A stretch of DNA of 64,000 bases from Anastatus disparis (Eukaryota > Arthropoda > Insecta > Hymenoptera > Eupelmidae). Below the pieces are notes generated by a model. That model did no database searches and was not told the origin of the DNA. It saw nothing but the letters and a program-made list of their open reading frames with translations. The DNA lies in contig JAFFSR010000237.1 of the NCBI GenBank assembly GCA_017163975.1, forward strand, positions 2,852,001 through 2,916,000, read 5' to 3'. The stretch's first letter is position 1; each line of letters opens with the position of its first letter. Shown piece after piece: positions 23,027-60,696 of this stretch. A program made the position numbers and the translations under genes.

Positions 23027-23833
23027 TTATTTCTTTTGTTGCTCATTTTTTGAGTCGCATTCGTAAACATTTGCAAACGCTAGAAGACATTCATACATTA
23101 CGTTAGGTTTCTTAAAGCACATCTCTTTGAACTCTGGTTCCGCAACGACTTCCTTTGAATGTTTAACCATAAAGTCTAAAACTTTTTTTTTTAATTCAGA
23201 AAGATTATAACGATCAGAAAATTCGAAATATTTAATAAAATTTTCAATCGACATAGTATCAAGTAAAAATTTAACACAAAAATCTTTTAAGCTATCCAGT
23301 TCATACAAATCTGCCGTAATGATTAAGTCAAACACTGCCTTTTCAATTTCGTTGATTCTACCGGTGTAAATGAAACGTAAAATTTCCTTAAACATAGCAG
23401 GATCAATGCCTTTGATTATAACAGAGCCAGTTTTATTTTCTTCAATCATAACAAAGTCATAACTCAATCCTGTAACAGCAGAGTTATCGTCTTTAAAAAT
23501 CGCACGAAAAACAGGACTTTGGCTTGATAATATGTGCTTGTGGGCATGAAAAATTTTTCCCTTAACTTTTAGAGATACGTCACTGCGAAATTTTTCCATG
23601 ACATCGAATGATTGGTCTGCAAAAGAATAATTGTCAAGAGTTTCACGTTCTTCAGACGTTGTAAGAGATTCAATAGAACTGTTATGAATTTCACGTTCTT
23701 CGGGCGTTGCAAGAGATCCAATAAAAATTTTATGAATTTCACGTTCTTTATCCATTTTTCGTCTCCTAGCTTCACCCAAGAATTTTTTTTTCGTATCTAC
23801 ATCACCAAAATTCATTTTTAAATAACTCGACAC
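23027..23833 (-). CDS. BTB/POZ-domain protein (SPOP-like, no MATH domain)
   Basis: Single-exon, 268-aa protein. A BTB/POZ fold lies at about residues 75-190, with the typical SDVSLKVKGKIFHAHKHILS and SPVFRAIF segments and the FIYTGRI turn. A BACK-like helical tail follows. BTB proteins of the speckle-type POZ class dimerise and link substrates to Cullin-3 ubiquitin ligases. A MATH substrate-binding domain is missing. In its place the first 70 residues hold three imperfect repeats (EEREIHNSSIESLTTSE and variants), which probably arose by tandem duplication. Such BTB genes are often expanded in wasps. The start is the first ATG of the frame; no TATA box was confirmed. Confidence 0.85.
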   Translation of the reverse strand: MSSYLKMNFGDVDTKKKFLGEARRRKMDKEREIHKIFIGSLATPEEREIHNSSIESLTTSEERETLDNYSFADQSFDVMEKFRSDVSLKVKGKIFHAHKHILSSQSPVFRAIFKDDNSAVTGLSYDFVMIEENKTGSVIIKGIDPAMFKEILRFIYTGRINEIEKAVFDLIITADLYELDSLKDFCVKFLLDTMSIENFIKYFEFSDRYNLSELKKKVLDFMVKHSKEVVAEPEFKEMCFKKPNVMYECLLAFANVYECDSKNEQQKK

Positions 23834-33387: not shown

Positions 33388-36300
33388 TTAGACACTAGTA
33401 TAATACAATTTCAGAAGATTCGCCAAATGTTTCTTATTTTTGGTAGCATGTCCTTGTTTTACCAACACATCGGTTATAGGTGCACTAACTAAATCTGGAA
33501 AACCTTTTAATTTAGTACGTACAGTTAGTGAATCTACCCAAATAGAATTGCCAATATGTAGGAGTGCTTTTCCTTCAATCGATGAAACGCCATCTTGATA
33601 ATTAATTTCTAACCATTTGTTAACCGCATTTTTGTCAATTACTGACCATTCACGTTCTTCGTTCGCTGGTGCGATATCCGTTAAAAAAATGTTTAGTATA
33701 GAACATTTGTAGTGTAAAAATTCATCTGGAATCTCAAGCAATTGATCAGCATAAATCTTTTCACCTATCTTTCCATCATCCAAAGATTGCAGACGAACGA
33801 CTCTAGGTTTACCTGTTTTAAAATCTATTTTTACAATATTTAGTATTTTTACTCTTGAATAAGATTGATCTTTTGGATTTTTGAAGCAATAAATTTTCCC
33901 AACGTCAACGTTATCAGGAATCCTGAGATTTTTTGGATTGGAGTAATGTTGTCTCATTTTCAAATTTAATTTTAAAATTTCGTGTGGTAAAGTAGCGGTA
34001 ACTGCCTTTTTAGTTTCACTACATGTTCTTGTATATTCTAACACTCGAGCTATAATGTGCGATGCATCCTGTATATGAATGATTTGTATCTTCAGTTTAT
34101 CATTCATGCAGATATTTGTTTGTGGAGCGTCAATATCTAAAAATATTCTATGTCTATAAGGGCAAGAAAATTTTTCACAAACACCGAAATATTTTAAAGA
34201 ATCGCATATAGGGTAGTCTTTTTTCATCAAATCTTCATTAAAATTTACCCTATAAATAATTTCATGACAATCATTAGGTAAATCTACGTCAAGTTTCTTT
34301 AAAATGTTTAATATTTCTTTAAAATTTGCGCTTTGTACAAGCTCATCAAATAAAATCAGTAGTTTATTCTTGGTTTCCATTTTCGCCAGCCAGTTATTCG
34401 CGTAAACAGAAAATCTATTGTTGAATTGTATTCTTGAAATATTTGAATGCGAGTAGCTGATTAAAAATTCTACATTTGAAATTGCTAATTTTGACAGTAC
34501 TTTATCAGTACAAATAATAACAGGATACTCTCCATGCTCCAAGTTAGCCCAATTATGTTTAGCTTCGTCAATTTGAGTGGATAACGTATTTTCATGAATT
34601 AATACTGTTTTAAAGGAATCATTTGCAAGAAATGAATTCAGATCTATGGCTTCCTGAATGTTCGAGCATAATATCATCGTTCTCATCGTTAAATAACATT
34701 TTCCCAGATTTTCTGCAACTAGGAATTTTTTCTGATATTTGCCACATACTATAGTTTTTCCTTGGACTCCAAAATCTCGAGCTGTTTCTACAAACGAACC
34801 GATACAAATATATGGATTTATCATAAACTTATCAATAAAAGAAGAAATTCCATTGGTCCAACTCTTCGAAGAAATGATTATTTGCACTGATCTATTTGAA
34901 ATTGAATTTACTATATGTTTGTTAATAATTTTGTATGATTTTACCAAAGTTATGATATCTCTTAACTGTTTAGCCATCAAAATATCAGCATCGTCTAAGA
35001 CCAAAAAAGCCAACTCGGAGAAATTCAGTTTACTTGAATATTTAAAGAGTAGTTCCAATAAATATGATGGCGTGGATACAAGAATTTGAAATTTATTGGC
35101 GATATTTGTCAACAATTCCGTCTCCGAATAATCACCATGTGGAGCAAAAGCTTTGATATCCTTGCGCAAACGTAGAAAATTATTAATTTTTGCAGCTACG
35201 TTCTCGCATTTTTTAACGGATGAGCAGAGAATCAGTACAGCGGGTTTTGTAATCGAACAACATTTTTGACTCTCGAGTATTATCTTTTCGTTGTCGGTGA
35301 CAAATTTGAGAATCGGAACAGCATAACCTACCAATTTTCTCCAAGATGAAGGATTAACAAACACCGTATCTAATCCTTGTTTGATAGCGGGCCACACGTT
35401 AGATTGAAAGCACGACAATCTTCGAATATTATGATCGTTCACCATTTTCGCTAAATTTTCAGTTAATTTCATGTCTTCTAAGCGTCTCAAAGACCGACAA
35501 CGAATGCTACTTTTAATCAGAAGATTTTCACCGGTCTCTCTGTCGACTTCTATAACTGTCTCATTATTTATTCTCGCTCCTCTCTGTTTACATGAATGGT
35601 AAGGCATGAATTTCGTATATTCTTTCTTGATAATTTTATCATTTTGTTTTTGCTCTTTCGTTTCTTTCGGTTTGAATAACTGCTGAGATAATAATGATTT
35701 TGAATTTTCTTTCTGTTCATTTTGTTTTTGTTCTATCGATTCTTTCGGTTTGGATAACTGGTGAGATAATAATGATTTTGAATTGTCTTTATGTTCATTT
35801 TGTTTTTGCTCTTTCGATTCTTTCGGTTTGAATAACTGGTGAGGTAATAATAATTTAAAATTTTTTTTCTGTTTCAATACAGAAGGTTTTAAAATGGCTA
35901 ATTTAGTAGAGATCAACACTTCGCTCAAGCTGAGATTTTTTTTCTCTCCGACCAAAATTAAATCTCCGTCGTATATTTTTTTCTTAATTAAATCTGTAAA
36001 ATAAATTTTATCCGCTTTTCCGATCAAACTTTTAACAAATTCAAACGCATCATTTGGCCATTCGTCTAAAATCCGCTGTTTAGAATCCACTGGTCGAACA
36101 TTAATTTGAATAGTCAGAGTAAATTCTTCAATTGGAATAGAACTTTTTGTGTATTTTAGAGTAGATATAATCGGCACATCAACGTAGATACCGTGATCTA
36201 ACAAAAAGATACGAGCTGTTTCTGACACATCTTTCACAACACCTCGACAAATTTCATCTGGTAAATTAATATTTGTCCTGTTGATTTCATTAGAAACCAA

Positions 36301-36519
36301 CACGTCATCTCCAATTTTTGGCGTACACTTGTTCGAGTAACTTTGAAGCTCGAACTTCAAAACTTCTTTTAATTTATCGTGTAAATCGTTTCTTTTTTTT
36401 CTACTTATAAGAGGACAAACTTGAATTCTGTTAGGCTCGATGATATGAGTGACATTCACTTTCGTCACGAATGTTGGAATTTCAACATTTTTCAATTTTT
36501 CTTCTTCAAATACAACCAT
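33388..36519 (-). CDS. Yb/TDRD12-like Tudor protein with degenerate DEAD helicase (gene 1)
   Basis: Intronless, 1,043 aa. Order of parts: N-terminal extended-Tudor-like region (about 20-215); three tandem copies of a ~27-aa Lys/Gln-rich unit (about 226-295, each with a form of FKPKESKEQKQNE); a DEAD-helicase-like core (about 355-730); a CCCH finger (C772, C781, C786, H790, within CDSLKYFGVCEKFSCPYRH); and a C-terminal extended Tudor (about 805-1010). The helicase core is decayed: the P-loop position reads NPSSWRKLVGY instead of GxGKT, motif II is DDAD (509-512), SAT is not recognisable, and motif VI is NNRFSVYANN. This architecture is that of TDRD12 and Drosophila SoYb/BoYb/Yb, piRNA-pathway scaffolds. 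Orthology among those is not settled. A TATA-like box (about 36693-36700) and TCAGTT initiator (36664-36669) lie upstream, about 31-33 bp apart. Confidence 0.85.
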   Translation of the reverse strand: MVVFEEEKLKNVEIPTFVTKVNVTHIIEPNRIQVCPLISRKKRNDLHDKLKEVLKFELQSYSNKCTPKIGDDVLVSNEINRTNINLPDEICRGVVKDVSETARIFLLDHGIYVDVPIISTLKYTKSSIPIEEFTLTIQINVRPVDSKQRILDEWPNDAFEFVKSLIGKADKIYFTDLIKKKIYDGDLILVGEKKNLSLSEVLISTKLAILKPSVLKQKKNFKLLLPHQLFKPKESKEQKQNEHKDNSKSLLSHQLSKPKESIEQKQNEQKENSKSLLSQQLFKPKETKEQKQNDKIIKKEYTKFMPYHSCKQRGARINNETVIEVDRETGENLLIKSSIRCRSLRRLEDMKLTENLAKMVNDHNIRRLSCFQSNVWPAIKQGLDTVFVNPSSWRKLVGYAVPILKFVTDNEKIILESQKCCSITKPAVLILCSSVKKCENVAAKINNFLRLRKDIKAFAPHGDYSETELLTNIANKFQILVSTPSYLLELLFKYSSKLNFSELAFLVLDDADILMAKQLRDIITLVKSYKIINKHIVNSISNRSVQIIISSKSWTNGISSFIDKFMINPYICIGSFVETARDFGVQGKTIVCGKYQKKFLVAENLGKCYLTMRTMILCSNIQEAIDLNSFLANDSFKTVLIHENTLSTQIDEAKHNWANLEHGEYPVIICTDKVLSKLAISNVEFLISYSHSNISRIQFNNRFSVYANNWLAKMETKNKLLILFDELVQSANFKEILNILKKLDVDLPNDCHEIIYRVNFNEDLMKKDYPICDSLKYFGVCEKFSCPYRHRIFLDIDAPQTNICMNDKLKIQIIHIQDASHIIARVLEYTRTCSETKKAVTATLPHEILKLNLKMRQHYSNPKNLRIPDNVDVGKIYCFKNPKDQSYSRVKILNIVKIDFKTGKPRVVRLQSLDDGKIGEKIYADQLLEIPDEFLHYKCSILNIFLTDIAPANEEREWSVIDKNAVNKWLEINYQDGVSSIEGKALLHIGNSIWVDSLTVRTKLKGFPDLVSAPITDVLVKQGHATKNKKHLANLLKLYYTSV

Positions 36520-39559: not shown

Positions 39560-41719
39560 TTATTTCTTAGTCATTAGCGAAAGTGGATGATCATTTACGT
39601 TTGCTAAGTTACTATCTAGATACAATTTCATAAGATTTGTCCAATGTGCCTTATTTTCAGTAGCGTGTCCTTGTTTTTTTAAAAAATCGCTTACAGATAT
39701 ACTCTCTAAGTCTGCATAACCTTTTAATTTATAACGTATAGTTAGAGAATCTAACCAAATAGAGTTACCAATATGTAAAAGTACTTTTCCTACAATCGAT
39801 GAAATATTACCTTTAGAATTATTTTCTAACCAATTGCTAACCGTTTTTTTAGCAATTATTGACCATTCACGTTCTTCGTTCACGGGTGCAATATTGGTTA
39901 AAAAAATGTTTGCTATAGAACATTTATATTTTAAAAATTGCTCTGGCATTTCAAGCAATTGATTAACATTAATCTTTCTCTCTATTTTTCCATCATCCAA
40001 AGATTGCAGACGAACAAATTTAGGTTCACCTGTTTCAAAATCTCTTTTTGAGATATTTAAAATTTGCACTCTTGAGTAAGAATGATCATCATTTTTAAAA
40101 CCATAAATTTTCCCAACATCAATGTGATCAGGAATTTTGCAATTTTTCGGATCGGAATAATATTGCTTCATTTTTAAATTTAATTTTGGAATTTCGTTAG
40201 GTAAAGTAATGGTATTTGCTCTTCCAGTTTTACTACATATTCTTGTATATTCCAACACTCGAGCTACAAAATGTGATGCATCCTGTACATGATTGATTTT
40301 TAATTTAACTTCATCATCCACGCTGATATCTGTTTGTGGAGCATCAATATCCGAAAATATTCTATGCCTATATGGACAAGAAAATTTTTCACAAACTCCA
40401 AAATATTTTATAGAATCGCATATAAGATAGTTTTTTTTCATCAAATCTTCCTTCAGATTTATTTTATCAATGATTTCATGGCAACCATTGGGTAAAACTA
40501 TGTCAAATCTCTGTAAAGTGTCTAATATTCCTTTAAAATTTGCGTTTTCTATAAGTTCATCAAATAAAATCAATATTTTACTCTTCAAATGCTTCTTGAA
40601 TAGCCGGTTATTTGCATAAACAGAAAATCTATTGTTGAATTGCGTTATGGAAATATTTGAATGTGAGTAGCTAATTAAAAACTCTACATTTGAAATGTTT
40701 AGGACTGACAATTTTTGATCGGTACAAATAACAGTAGGATACTCTCCGTACTTGGAGTAATTCCAATCAAATTCAACTTTGGCAATTCGAGAAAAATGCA
40801 TTTTTTCGTGAATTAACAGTGTTTTAAAATAACCAGCTCTAAGAAACATGTTCAAATATTGGGCTTCCTCAATGTTTGAGCATAATATCATTGTTTTAAC
40901 CTTTGAGGAATACTTTGCGAGATATCGCGCAGTTATGATTTTTTTCTTATCATTGCGACATATTAAAGCTTTCCCTCGGACTCTATGAAATTGAGCTATT
41001 TCTATAAATGAGCCAATACAAAGATATGGATTTATCGTAAACTTATTAACAAAAGAAGCTATTTCATTGTTCCAAATTTTCGAAAAAGTAATTATTTGTA
41101 AAGATCTATTTGAAATACAATTTATAATTTTTTTGTTAAAAATTTCAAAATCCCTCATCAAAATCATAATTTCTCTCAACTGTTTCGATACTAAAATGTC
41201 AATATTATCTAAGACCAAATAAGTTAATTCTGAAAAATTGATTTTGCTAGAATACTTCCGTAATATCTCCAATAAAAATGATGGAGTAGAGACCAGAATT
41301 TGAAATTTGTTGATGATATTTGTCAATATTTTCTCGTCTATTAAACTATTATAAGCAATAAAAGCTTTGATATCCTTGTACGAACGTAAGCTATTGTTAA
41401 TCTTTGAAGCCAGCTCTATGCAACTATTTGTAGATGGACATAAAACGAGGACTAGAGGTTTTGTCATCGGAGCATCATGTTGTCTTTCAAGAATGATTTT
41501 TTCATTGTCGATAATGAAATTCAGAACTGGATCTATGTAACCGATTGTTTTTTTCCTTGATGAAGAATTAACAATTACCGTATCAAGTCCTTGCTCAATA
41601 GCGGGCCACACGTAGGATTCAAAGCACTTTGATTTTTGAGAATAAGCATTATATACCACGTTCACTAGTTTTTTAGTTGATCGCAAATCAGTGATTTTTT
41701 CCTTTTGACATTCAGACAT
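39560..41719 (-). CDS. Yb/TDRD12-like protein, N-terminally shortened paralog (gene 2)
   Basis: Intronless, 719 aa, and a clear tandem paralog of the gene at 33388-36519. It aligns from the helicase core (FESYVWPAIEQGLDTV) to the C-terminal Tudor. The extended-Tudor N terminus and the Lys/Gln repeats, about 335 residues, are absent and replaced by a short unrelated start. The CCCH finger is kept (C434, C443, C448, H452). The ATPase motifs are more decayed than in gene 1: the P-loop site is NSSSRKKTIGY and motif II is DNID (171-174). The C terminus is 19 residues longer. The long intact frame in a duplicated, AT-rich setting suggests retained function as a scaffold. Loss of the N-terminal Tudor resembles the difference between Drosophila SoYb and Yb. 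Same strand and 3 kb apart. Confidence 0.83.
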   Translation of the reverse strand: MSECQKEKITDLRSTKKLVNVVYNAYSQKSKCFESYVWPAIEQGLDTVIVNSSSRKKTIGYIDPVLNFIIDNEKIILERQHDAPMTKPLVLVLCPSTNSCIELASKINNSLRSYKDIKAFIAYNSLIDEKILTNIINKFQILVSTPSFLLEILRKYSSKINFSELTYLVLDNIDILVSKQLREIMILMRDFEIFNKKIINCISNRSLQIITFSKIWNNEIASFVNKFTINPYLCIGSFIEIAQFHRVRGKALICRNDKKKIITARYLAKYSSKVKTMILCSNIEEAQYLNMFLRAGYFKTLLIHEKMHFSRIAKVEFDWNYSKYGEYPTVICTDQKLSVLNISNVEFLISYSHSNISITQFNNRFSVYANNRLFKKHLKSKILILFDELIENANFKGILDTLQRFDIVLPNGCHEIIDKINLKEDLMKKNYLICDSIKYFGVCEKFSCPYRHRIFSDIDAPQTDISVDDEVKLKINHVQDASHFVARVLEYTRICSKTGRANTITLPNEIPKLNLKMKQYYSDPKNCKIPDHIDVGKIYGFKNDDHSYSRVQILNISKRDFETGEPKFVRLQSLDDGKIERKINVNQLLEMPEQFLKYKCSIANIFLTNIAPVNEEREWSIIAKKTVSNWLENNSKGNISSIVGKVLLHIGNSIWLDSLTIRYKLKGYADLESISVSDFLKKQGHATENKAHWTNLMKLYLDSNLANVNDHPLSLMTKK

Positions 41720-51742: not shown

Positions 51743-52519
51743 ATGAAGCAGTCATCCATAAAACGAGAAATACCTGACACAGGTCTTCCAATAAAGACCT
51801 CGGGGGTCATGTTCAACGACGTGAGGAGAATTTCAACCGATGGCGAAGTAGACCCTCCTCCCGGTGCATGTTTTAATTGTTGGCGACGTGGACACCGAGT
51901 TAAGATGTGTCCTATGTCCCAAAATAAAATATATTGTTACAACTGTGGCCGGCGAGGAGTGGACTTGACAGACTGTCCACGTTGCAGCGAGCCACACCGG
52001 AGGCACCTCACATCGCAATATGGAGAGGAAACCGCAGCCCAGATGTACTATTATCATCAACCAGGTGGCGTCCCTGGTCCCCATTGCCTCCCACCGATAG
52101 CAACTACCAATATTGCCTCAAAGGTCACAACAACCACCACTACCACAGCGACAACAAAACAACCACAGGAGCCAACCACCACTCTGCCGGGCACCTCAAA
52201 GATCAATATACAGCTGATTTCAGCATTACGGCGACCTGGAGCAGTATCTAGTTCAAATCAACCAAAGACACATCCAAGCGAAGCCAAGTCAGAAAGCCTC
52301 ATCACTCAGATGTGTCGACTCACAAAAGCACTGAATGACCTTCCCGTAAATACCCAGGATGCCGTCGTGCGATATACTCTCCGTGGAGAAGGAATGGACC
52401 AAATGTTGCGGTTAACGGAATCCCTGTCTGTATTTTCTGCCTCTACGCGGGATGCCGTAATAAAGCGGGTATTAGAGGACCAGTGGCAACAACAATCAGC
52501 AAACAAAAGAAAAAAGTAA
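51743..52519 (+). CDS. CCHC zinc-knuckle protein
   Basis: 258 aa, one coding exon after a 5' UTR intron. A canonical knuckle C43-x2-C46-x4-H51-x4-C56 (CFNCWRRGHRVKMC) is followed by a second, modified one at C65-C68-V73-C78 where the His is Val. C81 and H85 nearby could supply the missing ligand (DCPRCSEPH). A Thr/Pro-rich linker follows. The C terminus has two related ~27-residue repeats (RLTKALNDLPVNTQDAVV and RLTESLSVFSASTRDAVI). Such knuckles bind single-stranded RNA or DNA and are common in retroviral-type Gag proteins and in RNA-processing factors. Base composition is richer in GC than its surroundings. A host RNA-binding gene and a domesticated Gag are both possible; no protease or polymerase frame is adjacent. 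Confidence 0.75.
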   Translation: MKQSSIKREIPDTGLPIKTSGVMFNDVRRISTDGEVDPPPGACFNCWRRGHRVKMCPMSQNKIYCYNCGRRGVDLTDCPRCSEPHRRHLTSQYGEETAAQMYYYHQPGGVPGPHCLPPIATTNIASKVTTTTTTTATTKQPQEPTTTLPGTSKINIQLISALRRPGAVSSSNQPKTHPSEAKSESLITQMCRLTKALNDLPVNTQDAVVRYTLRGEGMDQMLRLTESLSVFSASTRDAVIKRVLEDQWQQQSANKRKK

Positions 52520-58618: not shown

Positions 58619-60313
58619 CTATAAAAGTGAACTCCCATAAGCATCTTTTGCATTGATGTTAATGCCAGAATTAATTGATATTTCTATCAAATCTTGACAC
58701 TCTTCTTTAAAAATATGACGCAAAGATTTTGAAGTACTCTCCAAAATCTCTCTGTATTTTCTCAACAGTTTAACAATATCTAATCGATTATGATAAATTG
58801 CCAAATCGTAAGGTGTGAAATCACGTTTATCTTTGATTGCAGTATCGCAACCACTCGATAAAAGTATTTTGGCAATATTTACATTACCATTCTGCGATAC
58901 TTCGTGCAATGCCGTCAATCCGAAATCATCTTTAGCATTGACGTTTGCTTCTTGCTGTATTAGCAGACGTACAAATCTTGCATTACCATATTTGCACGCT
59001 AAATGTAAAATGGTTTTGTTGTTCTTATATTTAATAATATTTATGTTAGCAAAACCTTTGATCAATTCAGCAAATATATCATAGTTCCTTAATTTTAATG
59101 ATATACTCAGTGGAGTATTTCCGTACTCATCTTTTATATCGGTAGGTGCTCCACTATCTAATAATGATTTCAACTTTTCCAATGAGCCCATATGCACTGC
59201 TATATGTAACGCTGTTGTTTTAAATATTTTATCACAGCAAGTGCACCTAACTGAATAAATAAATTTATCAAAAACATTGTCAAAATTATCTATAGTTTCG
59301 TTAAAGGAACCCTTTTTCAAAATGTCACACAACTTGTATAGCCGCTCACTATTATCTATTATGGAATCTGATATGCGTATTAAATCTTGATTAGATTGTT
59401 TATCGTCCAAAACACTAGAAAAGTCACTGCTTTCACTGGAAGAATCTTCTGAACTGTATTCTCGTGATGGTACAAAGGGCAGTGCATATACGTTGAGTGT
59501 TCTTGTAACTAGTTTGGTCTTACAAAACTCATACAGGCGATCAATATTATCAGGAATGAATTTTAATATTTGCATTGAATCTATAATCAATTGATAACCA
59601 GCCGAAACACTAGAATAGCCACTGCTTGTACTAGAATAATCTTCTGAATTGTATTCTCTAGATGGTAAAAAAGACAATGCATAGACATTCAATGTTCTCA
59701 CAACTTGTTTGGTTTTAGAAAAATTGTACATATTAAAAGATGGTAGAAAAGACTGCGTGTGTACATTGAGTATACTTTTTTTACAGAATGGAATGAATAG
59801 TAATGTATGTACATTCAGTTTCCTTTTCTTAGACGATGGAATAAAAATCTTAGCATCAACGTTAAGTATTTTCTTGCTATAAGATGGAGTAAATGGCAGT
59901 GCATTTGCATTCAGTTTACTTTTTTTAAACGATGGTACAAATACCATTGCATTGACATTGAGTATACTCTTATTGTTTGACGGTATGAAAGGCAACGCAT
60001 TTACATTCAGTTTCCTTTTCTTAGATGATGGAATAAAAATCTCAGCATCAACGTTAAGTATGTTCTTATTATAAGATGGAATGAATGGCAGTGCATTTGC
60101 ATTCAGTTTACTTTTTTCAAATAATGGTATAAATACCATTGCATTGACATTGAGTATACTTTTATTGTATGACGGTACGAAAGGCAATGCATTCACATTT
60201 AGGTTCCTTTTCTTAGACGACGGAATAAAAACCGCAGCATCAACATTAAGTATACTATTATAAGATGGAATGAATGGTGATGTATTTACATTCAACATTG
60301 TATTATTGAACAT
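58619..60313 (-). CDS. ankyrin-repeat protein with a tandem array of PAM2-type motifs
   Basis: Single exon, 564 aa, with no signal peptide or membrane helix. Residues 7-191 are twelve 15-16-residue units, each with LNxxAxxFxP (for example LNVNALPFVPSYNKSI and LNVDAEIFIPSSKKRK). Two further copies (208-217 and 273-282, LNVYALPFVP) sit in longer Ser-rich repeats, making 14 in all. Three of the 14 have Thr for Ala. LNxxAxxFxP is the core of the PAM2 motif, which binds the MLLE domain of cytoplasmic poly(A)-binding protein in Paip1/2, ataxin-2, Tob and GW182. The units form a higher-order repeat of four (64 aa, 192 bp). The C-terminal part has about five ankyrin repeats (TALHIAVHMGSLEKLKSLLD, TILHLACKYGNARFVRLLIQ, TALHEVSQNGNVNIAKILLS) and stops inside a last repeat (AKDAYGSSLL). 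Probable role: mRNA-associated adaptor; its partner through ankyrin is unknown. Confidence 0.85.
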   Translation of the reverse strand: MFNNTMLNVNTSPFIPSYNSILNVDAAVFIPSSKKRNLNVNALPFVPSYNKSILNVNAMVFIPLFEKSKLNANALPFIPSYNKNILNVDAEIFIPSSKKRKLNVNALPFIPSNNKSILNVNAMVFVPSFKKSKLNANALPFTPSYSKKILNVDAKIFIPSSKKRKLNVHTLLFIPFCKKSILNVHTQSFLPSFNMYNFSKTKQVVRTLNVYALSFLPSREYNSEDYSSTSSGYSSVSAGYQLIIDSMQILKFIPDNIDRLYEFCKTKLVTRTLNVYALPFVPSREYSSEDSSSESSDFSSVLDDKQSNQDLIRISDSIIDNSERLYKLCDILKKGSFNETIDNFDNVFDKFIYSVRCTCCDKIFKTTALHIAVHMGSLEKLKSLLDSGAPTDIKDEYGNTPLSISLKLRNYDIFAELIKGFANINIIKYKNNKTILHLACKYGNARFVRLLIQQEANVNAKDDFGLTALHEVSQNGNVNIAKILLSSGCDTAIKDKRDFTPYDLAIYHNRLDIVKLLRKYREILESTSKSLRHIFKEECQDLIEISINSGININAKDAYGSSLL

Positions 60314-60414: not shown

Positions 60415-60696
60415 AAAAATGTTGAACTACGAATATCTATGAAATACTTGTTTGATGTTAATTGATCAGTACTTAAGAGTGAACTGAAGATATTTTTGAC
60501 AAGCACCTTATTTATATGTGAGCAGATTCAAATTACTCTTACCTAAGGTAATAATAAAAATGTTGAACTATGAATATCTATGAAATACTTGCTTGATATC
60601 AATTGATCAGTACTTAAGAGTGAACTGAAGATATTTTTGGCAAGCACCTTATTTATATGTGAGCAGATTCAAATTATTCTTACCTAAGGTAATAAA
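60415..60696 (-). promoter_or_regulatory. tandemly duplicated TATA + Inr core promoter
   Basis: Two direct repeats with 141-bp period (about 60415-60555 and 60556-60696), nearly identical. Each has, on the minus strand, TATAAATA (60509-60516 and 60650-60657) and a TCAGTT initiator (60482-60487 and 60623-60628) with the initiator A 31 bp after the T of TATA. They lie about 172 and 313 nt before the ATG of the ankyrin/PAM2 gene. Confidence 0.7.

Follow-up and report, generated by a model that had tools for sequence, protein, structure and literature searches.

The window analysed here, a stretch of 64,000 nucleotides from the 939-Mb genome of Anastatus disparis, sits on contig C235 and carries on its minus strand an intronless open reading frame of 564 amino acids (58619..60313), in which ORF calling and Pfam delimit an array of PAM2 motifs, linker modules, and ankyrin repeats. 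Twelve tandem PAM2 units, one of 15 residues followed by eleven of 16, occupy residues 7–197 (59723..60295, minus strand); behind them lie two direct copies of 195 nt (59327..59716, minus strand; 73% identical), each of which combines a PAM2 motif with an acidic SED/Ser tract and an 'ERLYxxC' stretch. The 13th motif, LNVYALSFLP (residues 208–217; 59663..59692, minus strand), is found inside the first of these PAM2-SED modules of about 65 amino acids, and the 14th, LNVYALPFVP (residues 273–282; 59468..59497, minus strand), inside the second; in a paralogue with a 790-aa frame, four such modules were counted by eye. Successive motifs of the 564-aa protein are spaced by 15 residues, then ten times by 16, then by 26, and finally by 65, and they start at residues 7, 22, 38, 54, 70, 86, 102, 118, 134, 150, 166, 182, 208, and 273, exactly as listed in the initial annotation of this DNA. 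Repeat periods of 48, 96, and 192 nt are reported by TRF, the last belonging to a higher-order repeat of four units (59810–60277; 2.5 copies, 90% match), which indicates that four-unit blocks have been duplicated. Because nine motifs (residues 22–150) fall wholly within this higher-order repeat, the 14 units do not amount to 14 independent events.

The ankyrin-repeat half follows at 58622..59293 (minus strand; Pfam), with PF12796 as its strongest family (E = 3.6e-40, 136.9 bits, best stretch 436–520) and PF00023 in five stretches, so that several repeats of about 33 residues are present and the annotated fusion of a PAM2 array to ankyrin repeats is borne out. Over residues 1–285, PAM2 is the sole Pfam family above its cut-off. 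A family-specific C-x-C-C stretch (residues 357–360; 59234–59245) precedes the ankyrin repeats; the longer C-x-C-C...T-T stretch (59203–59245) is conserved in the window gene and the 10 aligned paralogues, and the C-x-C-C signature occurs in none of 239 distinct ankyrin homologues scanned. It is possibly a metal site or a cap particular to the family. The first 200 residues bear a net charge of +20, from which an additional contact with RNA is a matter of speculation; the basic N-terminal half is probably disordered.

Upstream of the frame, a 141-bp segment is tandemly duplicated (60415..60695, minus strand), the two copies being 95–96% identical, and both carry TATAAAT (60516, 60657) followed 29 nt on by a TCAGTT initiator-like element (60487, 60628), which would be consistent with a promoter role. 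A 98% copy at C235:2959795 likewise has the TATA box and the initiator-like element. Among 20 upstream regions of the family, a TATA box with an exact TCAGTT 29–30 nt on was found in 12, part of this arrangement in six, and neither element in two; of 13 ankyrin-only genes examined, six have the exact pair upstream.

Other genes of the window were also inspected. Two single-ORF genes on the minus strand, at 33388–36519 (1043 aa) and 39560–41719 (719 aa), are presumably TDRD12/Yb-like; Pfam finds DEAD helicase, Helicase_C, and Tudor domains in them, although in the 719-aa gene Helicase_C and Tudor stay under the cut-off. This 719-aa gene has a 100% copy at C235:2940697–2942853, at an offset of 49.13 kb that nearly equals the 49.17-kb offset of the 98% PAM2-ankyrin copy, so a single block of about 49 kb, holding both genes, was apparently duplicated. 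Exon-like pieces of a TDRD12/Yb-related gene lie at C259:4156329–4159520. In addition, the window holds a single-ORF BTB/POZ and BACK protein, SPOP-like by Pfam (23027–23833, minus strand), and an ORF in which zinc-knuckle families match weakly, under their cut-offs (51743–52519, plus strand), and which perhaps derives from a transposable element.

Identity of the repeats and constraint on their anchors

The curated Pfam model of PAM2, PF07145, matches the protein with E = 1.3e-25 and 87.6 bits (cut-off 20), and nine stretches pass singly, which agrees with the motif assignment of the initial annotation. A relaxed scan that admitted any window with at least three of the five core positions returned 14 windows, every one of them 5/5; hence, the motif count is not an outcome of a strict search. 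Leu, Asn, Phe, and Pro are present in 14/14 units, while position 7 is Ala in 11 and Thr in three (residues 7, 166, and 182), the same position count as had been annotated. Position 5 is Val in 12 units and Ala in two, and Glu-9 is found in 0/14, its place being taken by Pro (6), Val (3), Ile (2), Ser (2), or Leu (1). Composition alone would yield 0.0014 motifs per protein; this expectation, together with the Pfam match, rules out the array as a chance or low-complexity artefact, and both the identity and the number of the motifs are established.

A six-frame search of the genome with PF07145 (E ≤ 1) gave 36 matches, comprising 31 in arrays on C235 and five single sites elsewhere; in this search, 4 of the 14 window-gene units are listed singly, at 20.4–21.7 bits and above the cut-off. 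The single sites are LNPNAAEFVP, LNVNAAEFVP, LNPNAKEFNP, LNPDAAEFVP, and LNPLAKEFVP, all five with Glu-9, and their contexts include N-terminal and poly-Q ones, a poly-Q tract preceding the Ataxin-2-type site. Poly-Q at this place fits Hymenoptera or Diptera according to PMC4105795, and both this frame and the PABP of the genome have an insect look; a search for five TTAGG repeats gave 16 scattered matches. Going by sequence, we take three of the five sites to belong to eRF3, Ataxin-2, and a HELZ-like helicase. Three frames that contain a site were scanned with Pfam, and all three match PAM2; for a fourth site, the neighbouring frame was the one scanned, and it shows a helicase-type AAA domain. 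In the passages cited from structural work, PAM2 peptides carry Pro, Val, or occasionally Thr at position 5, prefer Glu at 9, and have an Ala-7 that is called invariant (PMC2854688), and in the MLLE-bound peptide Leu enters pocket B and Phe pocket A, Asn and Ala stand at the turn, and Pro is usual at 12 (PMC2854688, PMC7356810). Judged by its residues, the array follows these published rules apart from the preferred Glu-9 and the three units in which Thr replaces Ala.

The initial annotation had also suggested selection on the binding positions with spacers left to vary, and a comparison of the 11 tandem 16-aa units, cut by period and not by motif, supports this. In the window gene, the five core columns give pS 0.71 and pN 0.029 (pN/pS 0.041), compared with pS 0.65 and pN 0.33 (pN/pS 0.50) over the remaining 11 columns; only 3 of 4368 five-column sets are as constrained as the core, the core set among them. 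Similarly, the 17 tandem units of the 790-aa-frame paralogue yield pS/pN of 0.73/0.048 in the core and 0.58/0.31 elsewhere, with 10/4368 sets as low; two of these 17 units have a partly lost core, and further columns are constrained, with Ser at column 11 and Lys at 14. Of the 48 Leu, Asn, Phe, and Pro cells in 12 window-gene units, none is replaced, although the same codons differ at 0.50 in their third positions. Under neutrality, a star-tree simulation predicts that 27 of 48 would be replaced, and none of 20000 runs left zero replaced; even with divergence as low as 0.2, P = 5e-5, though these P values are too strong since a star tree ignores shared history. The contrast between core and rest within the same units is independent of the simulation P values, and, together with the absence of anchor replacements, it places the anchors under purifying selection.

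The high synonymous divergence between units implies that they are old as well as constrained, and a history of recent copying only is ruled out by its value of about 0.7 against core replacements of about 0.03. The same figures bear on the idea that the array is a functionless, unstable coding minisatellite whose units are alike through recent copying. Such an origin would suit the 192-nt higher-order repeat with its 90% match and the existence of other array copies that are broken or without ankyrins; it is extremely improbable, however, in view of the divergence just given, of an open frame maintained over 564–774 codons in four genes, and of the selection on the ankyrin half. On the last point, a comparison of the final 290 codons between the window gene and the paralogue with 17 motifs gives pN 0.020 and pS 0.091, values by which the ankyrin half is under purifying selection.

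Gene family and possible origin of the array

Paralogue counts in this one genome are lower bounds, the best candidates having been scored. At least four ankyrin-bearing array genes exist, all on C235 and including the window gene, so that local gene amplification is plain. A copy 13.6 kb away is identical in its coding DNA, its flanks showing 8 mismatches and 13 gap bases; another copy, 49 kb away, is 98% identical with 14 coding differences; and the fourth gene has 17 full motifs in its 790-aa frame. Complete units number 14, 14, 14, and 17 in the four genes (59/63), and the four incomplete ones all belong to the 790-aa-frame gene, as three windows with 3–4 of 5 anchors and its first unit.

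Array copies without ankyrin repeats are also present on C235. At 2983398–2984876, 10 of 16 windows (at least 3/5 anchors) are complete, with more units below the threshold by eye; at 3291037–3291576, the count is 2 of 8 by the same threshold, two of the windows overlapping; a third copy, at 3295423–3296440, is broken into four frames and still holds many complete units, which probably come from late amplification; and a fragment with two motifs lies at 3088.7 kb. The copy at 3291 kb, a short ankyrin-less ORF (L027:1020–1598), mostly keeps F-x-P by eye and has drifted in its L-N half, and its spacers look acidic rather than basic; its array may, to judge by these residues, have an altered specificity. 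Free drift of the anchors among orthologues, the observation that the initial annotation set against its own reading, can be followed here in paralogues only: the anchors hold in the ankyrin-bearing genes and drift in two of the ankyrin-less C235 copies. Since the broken 3295-kb array retains many complete units, this association between anchors and ankyrins is no more than suggestive.

At other places in the genome, 19 related ankyrin ORFs (250 aa or longer) were examined, and none has a complete PAM2 motif; two of them (L026 and L028) are frames without an N-terminus, and several are near-copies of each other. These ankyrin-only paralogues are 48–57% identical to the array gene over the ankyrin half and have the C-x-C-C stretch, the SED tract, and the single open frame in common with it. 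In a DNA alignment, their first 20 or so codons match the start of the array gene, gapless inside, three genes beginning six codons later than the rest, and peptides of the type MNCNARAFSS occupy the place of LNVNTSPFIP, the first PAM2 unit. The ankyrin-only peptides are without Leu-3 and Pro-12, and Phe-10 occurs in some only; their Met and Ser codons are one base each from the Leu and Pro codons of the array. Several ankyrin-only paralogues (L018:1977–3428, L020, L021, L022, and L028, on C256, C225, and C263) also carry acidic C-terminal tandem repeats of an NEYADGY type, apparently a second peptide array within the family that looks unrelated to PAM2.

Given how the ankyrin-only N-termini line up with PAM2 unit 1, a single N-terminal peptide may have been the starting point of the array. 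In a tree built from three array sequences and 17 ankyrin-only ones, the array genes all fall to the same side of a branch supported at 100/100; because the tree is unrooted and has no outgroup, the direction from near-PAM2 to PAM2 is putative. The simplest story would be that one N-terminal peptide turned into PAM2 and was then amplified, and the reverse direction, from PAM2 to near-PAM2, is possible on the unrooted tree. The related non-PAM2 peptide of the ankyrin-only genes also leaves room for a different past function of this stretch, which would speak for a core kept for a reason other than MLLE binding, such as another peptide-binding domain or self-association, its match to PAM2 being convergent. 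Absence of Glu-9 from every unit would accord with such convergence, which we nonetheless regard as distinctly unlikely, as the five anchors occur together 14 times, mostly with Val-5, and few column sets are as constrained as the core.

Candidate MLLE partners and known multi-PAM2 systems

A genome search for MLLE gave two matches, the C-terminus of PABP (1.6e-27) and UBR5/Hyd (9.2e-21; C216:14041535), and the closest solved structures support both identities by relatives; thus, a partner domain is encoded in the same genome. PABP and UBR5 MLLE domains share PAM2-type ligands. It is very unlikely that the UBR5/Hyd ubiquitin ligase is the main partner, in which case the array would recruit the ligase and not mRNA: its MLLE is the only non-PABP match in the genome, but no feature of the units favours Hyd over PABP, and PABP is far more abundant than Hyd. 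In passages of PMC12852828, UBR5 is nevertheless one of the two human MLLE proteins named, next to PABPC1.

Returning to PABP as the partner, the local MLLE closely resembles that of human PABPC1 and keeps all seven of its pocket-A residues (list of PMC7356810) and the KITGMLLE signature, while in pocket B two of the five listed residues differ, T576N and P600G by alignment mapping. From the sequences, these two differences, together with Glu-9 missing in 14/14 units and Thr-7 in three, would count against docking. Affinities of single PAM2 peptides for MLLE span 0.2–40 uM in the passages of PMC9249222, and, according to a portion of PMC5118804, the PAN3 PAM2 did not interact with PABPC1 despite having the essential residues.

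The established PAM2 clients eRF3/GSPT, Ataxin-2, Paip2, Tob, PAN3, GW182, LARP4, and UNK have the core LNxxAxxFxP in common with the array; as far as the cited passages describe them, they contain one or two motifs each and prefer Glu-9, whereas the array has 14 motifs without it. Closer in kind is Upa2, an endosomal mRNA-transport scaffold of Ustilago maydis in which, as in the array, several PAM2 motifs share one chain; those of Upa2 bind the MLLE of Pab1 (PMC9249222, PMC12852828). However, Upa2 has four motifs compared with the 14–17 of the array genes and is a fungal scaffold that dimerises and carries a GWW motif at its C-terminus, while the 564-aa protein is without any Trp; neither ankyrin repeats nor a tandem 16-aa array is described in the passages on Upa2. 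The Ustilago maydis FYVE adaptor Upa1, named in the initial annotation as a parallel, does combine PAM2 and PAM2-like motifs with ankyrin repeats: the relevant passages give it one PAM2, two PAM2L of the FxxP type, and five ankyrin repeats, plus FYVE and RING domains (PMC4466420). No FYVE or RING domain was found in the 564-aa protein by Pfam at E ≤ 10, nor was the PRANC domain (PF09372) of PRANC/poxvirus-type ankyrin proteins.

Searches for relatives of the array were carried out in several collections. In the literature searched, which lies mostly outside subscription journals, the four PAM2 motifs of Upa2 are the most found in any one natural protein chain. Residues 1–230 gave no match at E ≤ 10 among 7996 scored candidates from a set of 5.8 billion proteins, the candidates being of 0.55–1.75 times the length and sharing 5-mers, a filter that may have passed over arrays that are distant or short. 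The whole protein (194 matches) and the ankyrin profile (1427 matches) retrieved ankyrin-repeat proteins, and the PAM2 core is in none of the 239 distinct proteins among the best 120 of each. An array peptide pattern hit 7 stretches in viral contigs and 84 in prokaryote genomes, and the ankyrin family profile hit 53 stretches in viral contigs, none of which was confirmed as a relative; a PDB sequence search with four array units returned one chance-level match only (E = 1.4). At the sensitivities used, these collections, in which eukaryotes were covered through the protein set, yielded no relative of the array and no orthologue from another species. Taken together with the Upa1 and Upa2 parallels, these results indicate that multi-PAM2 adaptors are a known kind, and that the valency, the apparent lineage restriction, and the possibly visible origin are what stand out here.

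Proposed mechanism and significance

It is probable that at least some of the units bind PABP. On balance, we lean toward a cytosolic adaptor in which the array would engage PABP multivalently and the ankyrins would tie it to a second partner. Each 16-residue unit would present one PAM2 peptide to the MLLE of cytoplasmic PABP, and one molecule could then engage more than one PABP at a time, whether these sit on a single poly(A) tail or on separate mRNAs; such multivalent occupancy is what we infer from the unit number. Clients with one PAM2 site, among them eRF3, Ataxin-2, and the deadenylase adaptors, would lose in competition with the array, and the ankyrin half would provide a second, specific contact that determines which protein or place receives the PABP-bound mRNA. 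Fourteen sites might serve as a cross-linker, a sponge, or a safety margin. The very high avidity for PABP and the clustering of PABP-bound mRNAs suggested in the initial annotation are likewise conjectural. Multiplicity in itself need not be decisive for function, as Upa2 with all four PAM2 motifs mutated left endosomal mRNA transport undisturbed in the account given in PMC9249222; likewise, tethers with 2x or 4x PAM2 suppressed NMD no more than one did, according to the cited part of PMC5118804.

Alternatively, the protein could act as a PABP sponge or decoy, its array blocking MLLE to other PAM2 clients by Paip2-like repression or in a genetic conflict, with ankyrins that just stabilise or localise it. 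The size of the array, its local amplification to four ankyrin-bearing copies on one contig, the TATA/Inr-like upstream elements, and the lack of any array relative in the collections searched would all fit. This alternative is unlikely, however, because the ankyrin half is constrained too (as measured above) and the motifs drift in two copies that have no ankyrins; both observations suggest that array and ankyrins act together, as the adaptor reading supposes.

A broader proposal, which we regard as rather doubtful, is that in a lineage-specific family the peptide at the N-terminus of an ankyrin protein gave rise de novo to a PAM2 ligand, which was then amplified to 14–17 copies. The outcome would be a natural PABP cross-linker that clusters poly(A) mRNPs or starves other PABP clients, possibly as part of a germline RNA programme or of a genetic conflict. 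With regard to the germline idea, it may be recorded that the same cluster carries the amplified intronless TDRD12-like genes.

A natural array of 14–17 sites amounts to an experiment in high-valency PABP engagement, with a bearing on translation, termination, deadenylation, and mRNP clustering, and, if its units bind, it would be a ready-made PABP trap for the laboratory. Moreover, the family may record the evolution of a short linear motif, from near-PAM2 paralogues through one full-motif tandem clade to drift in two ankyrin-less copies.
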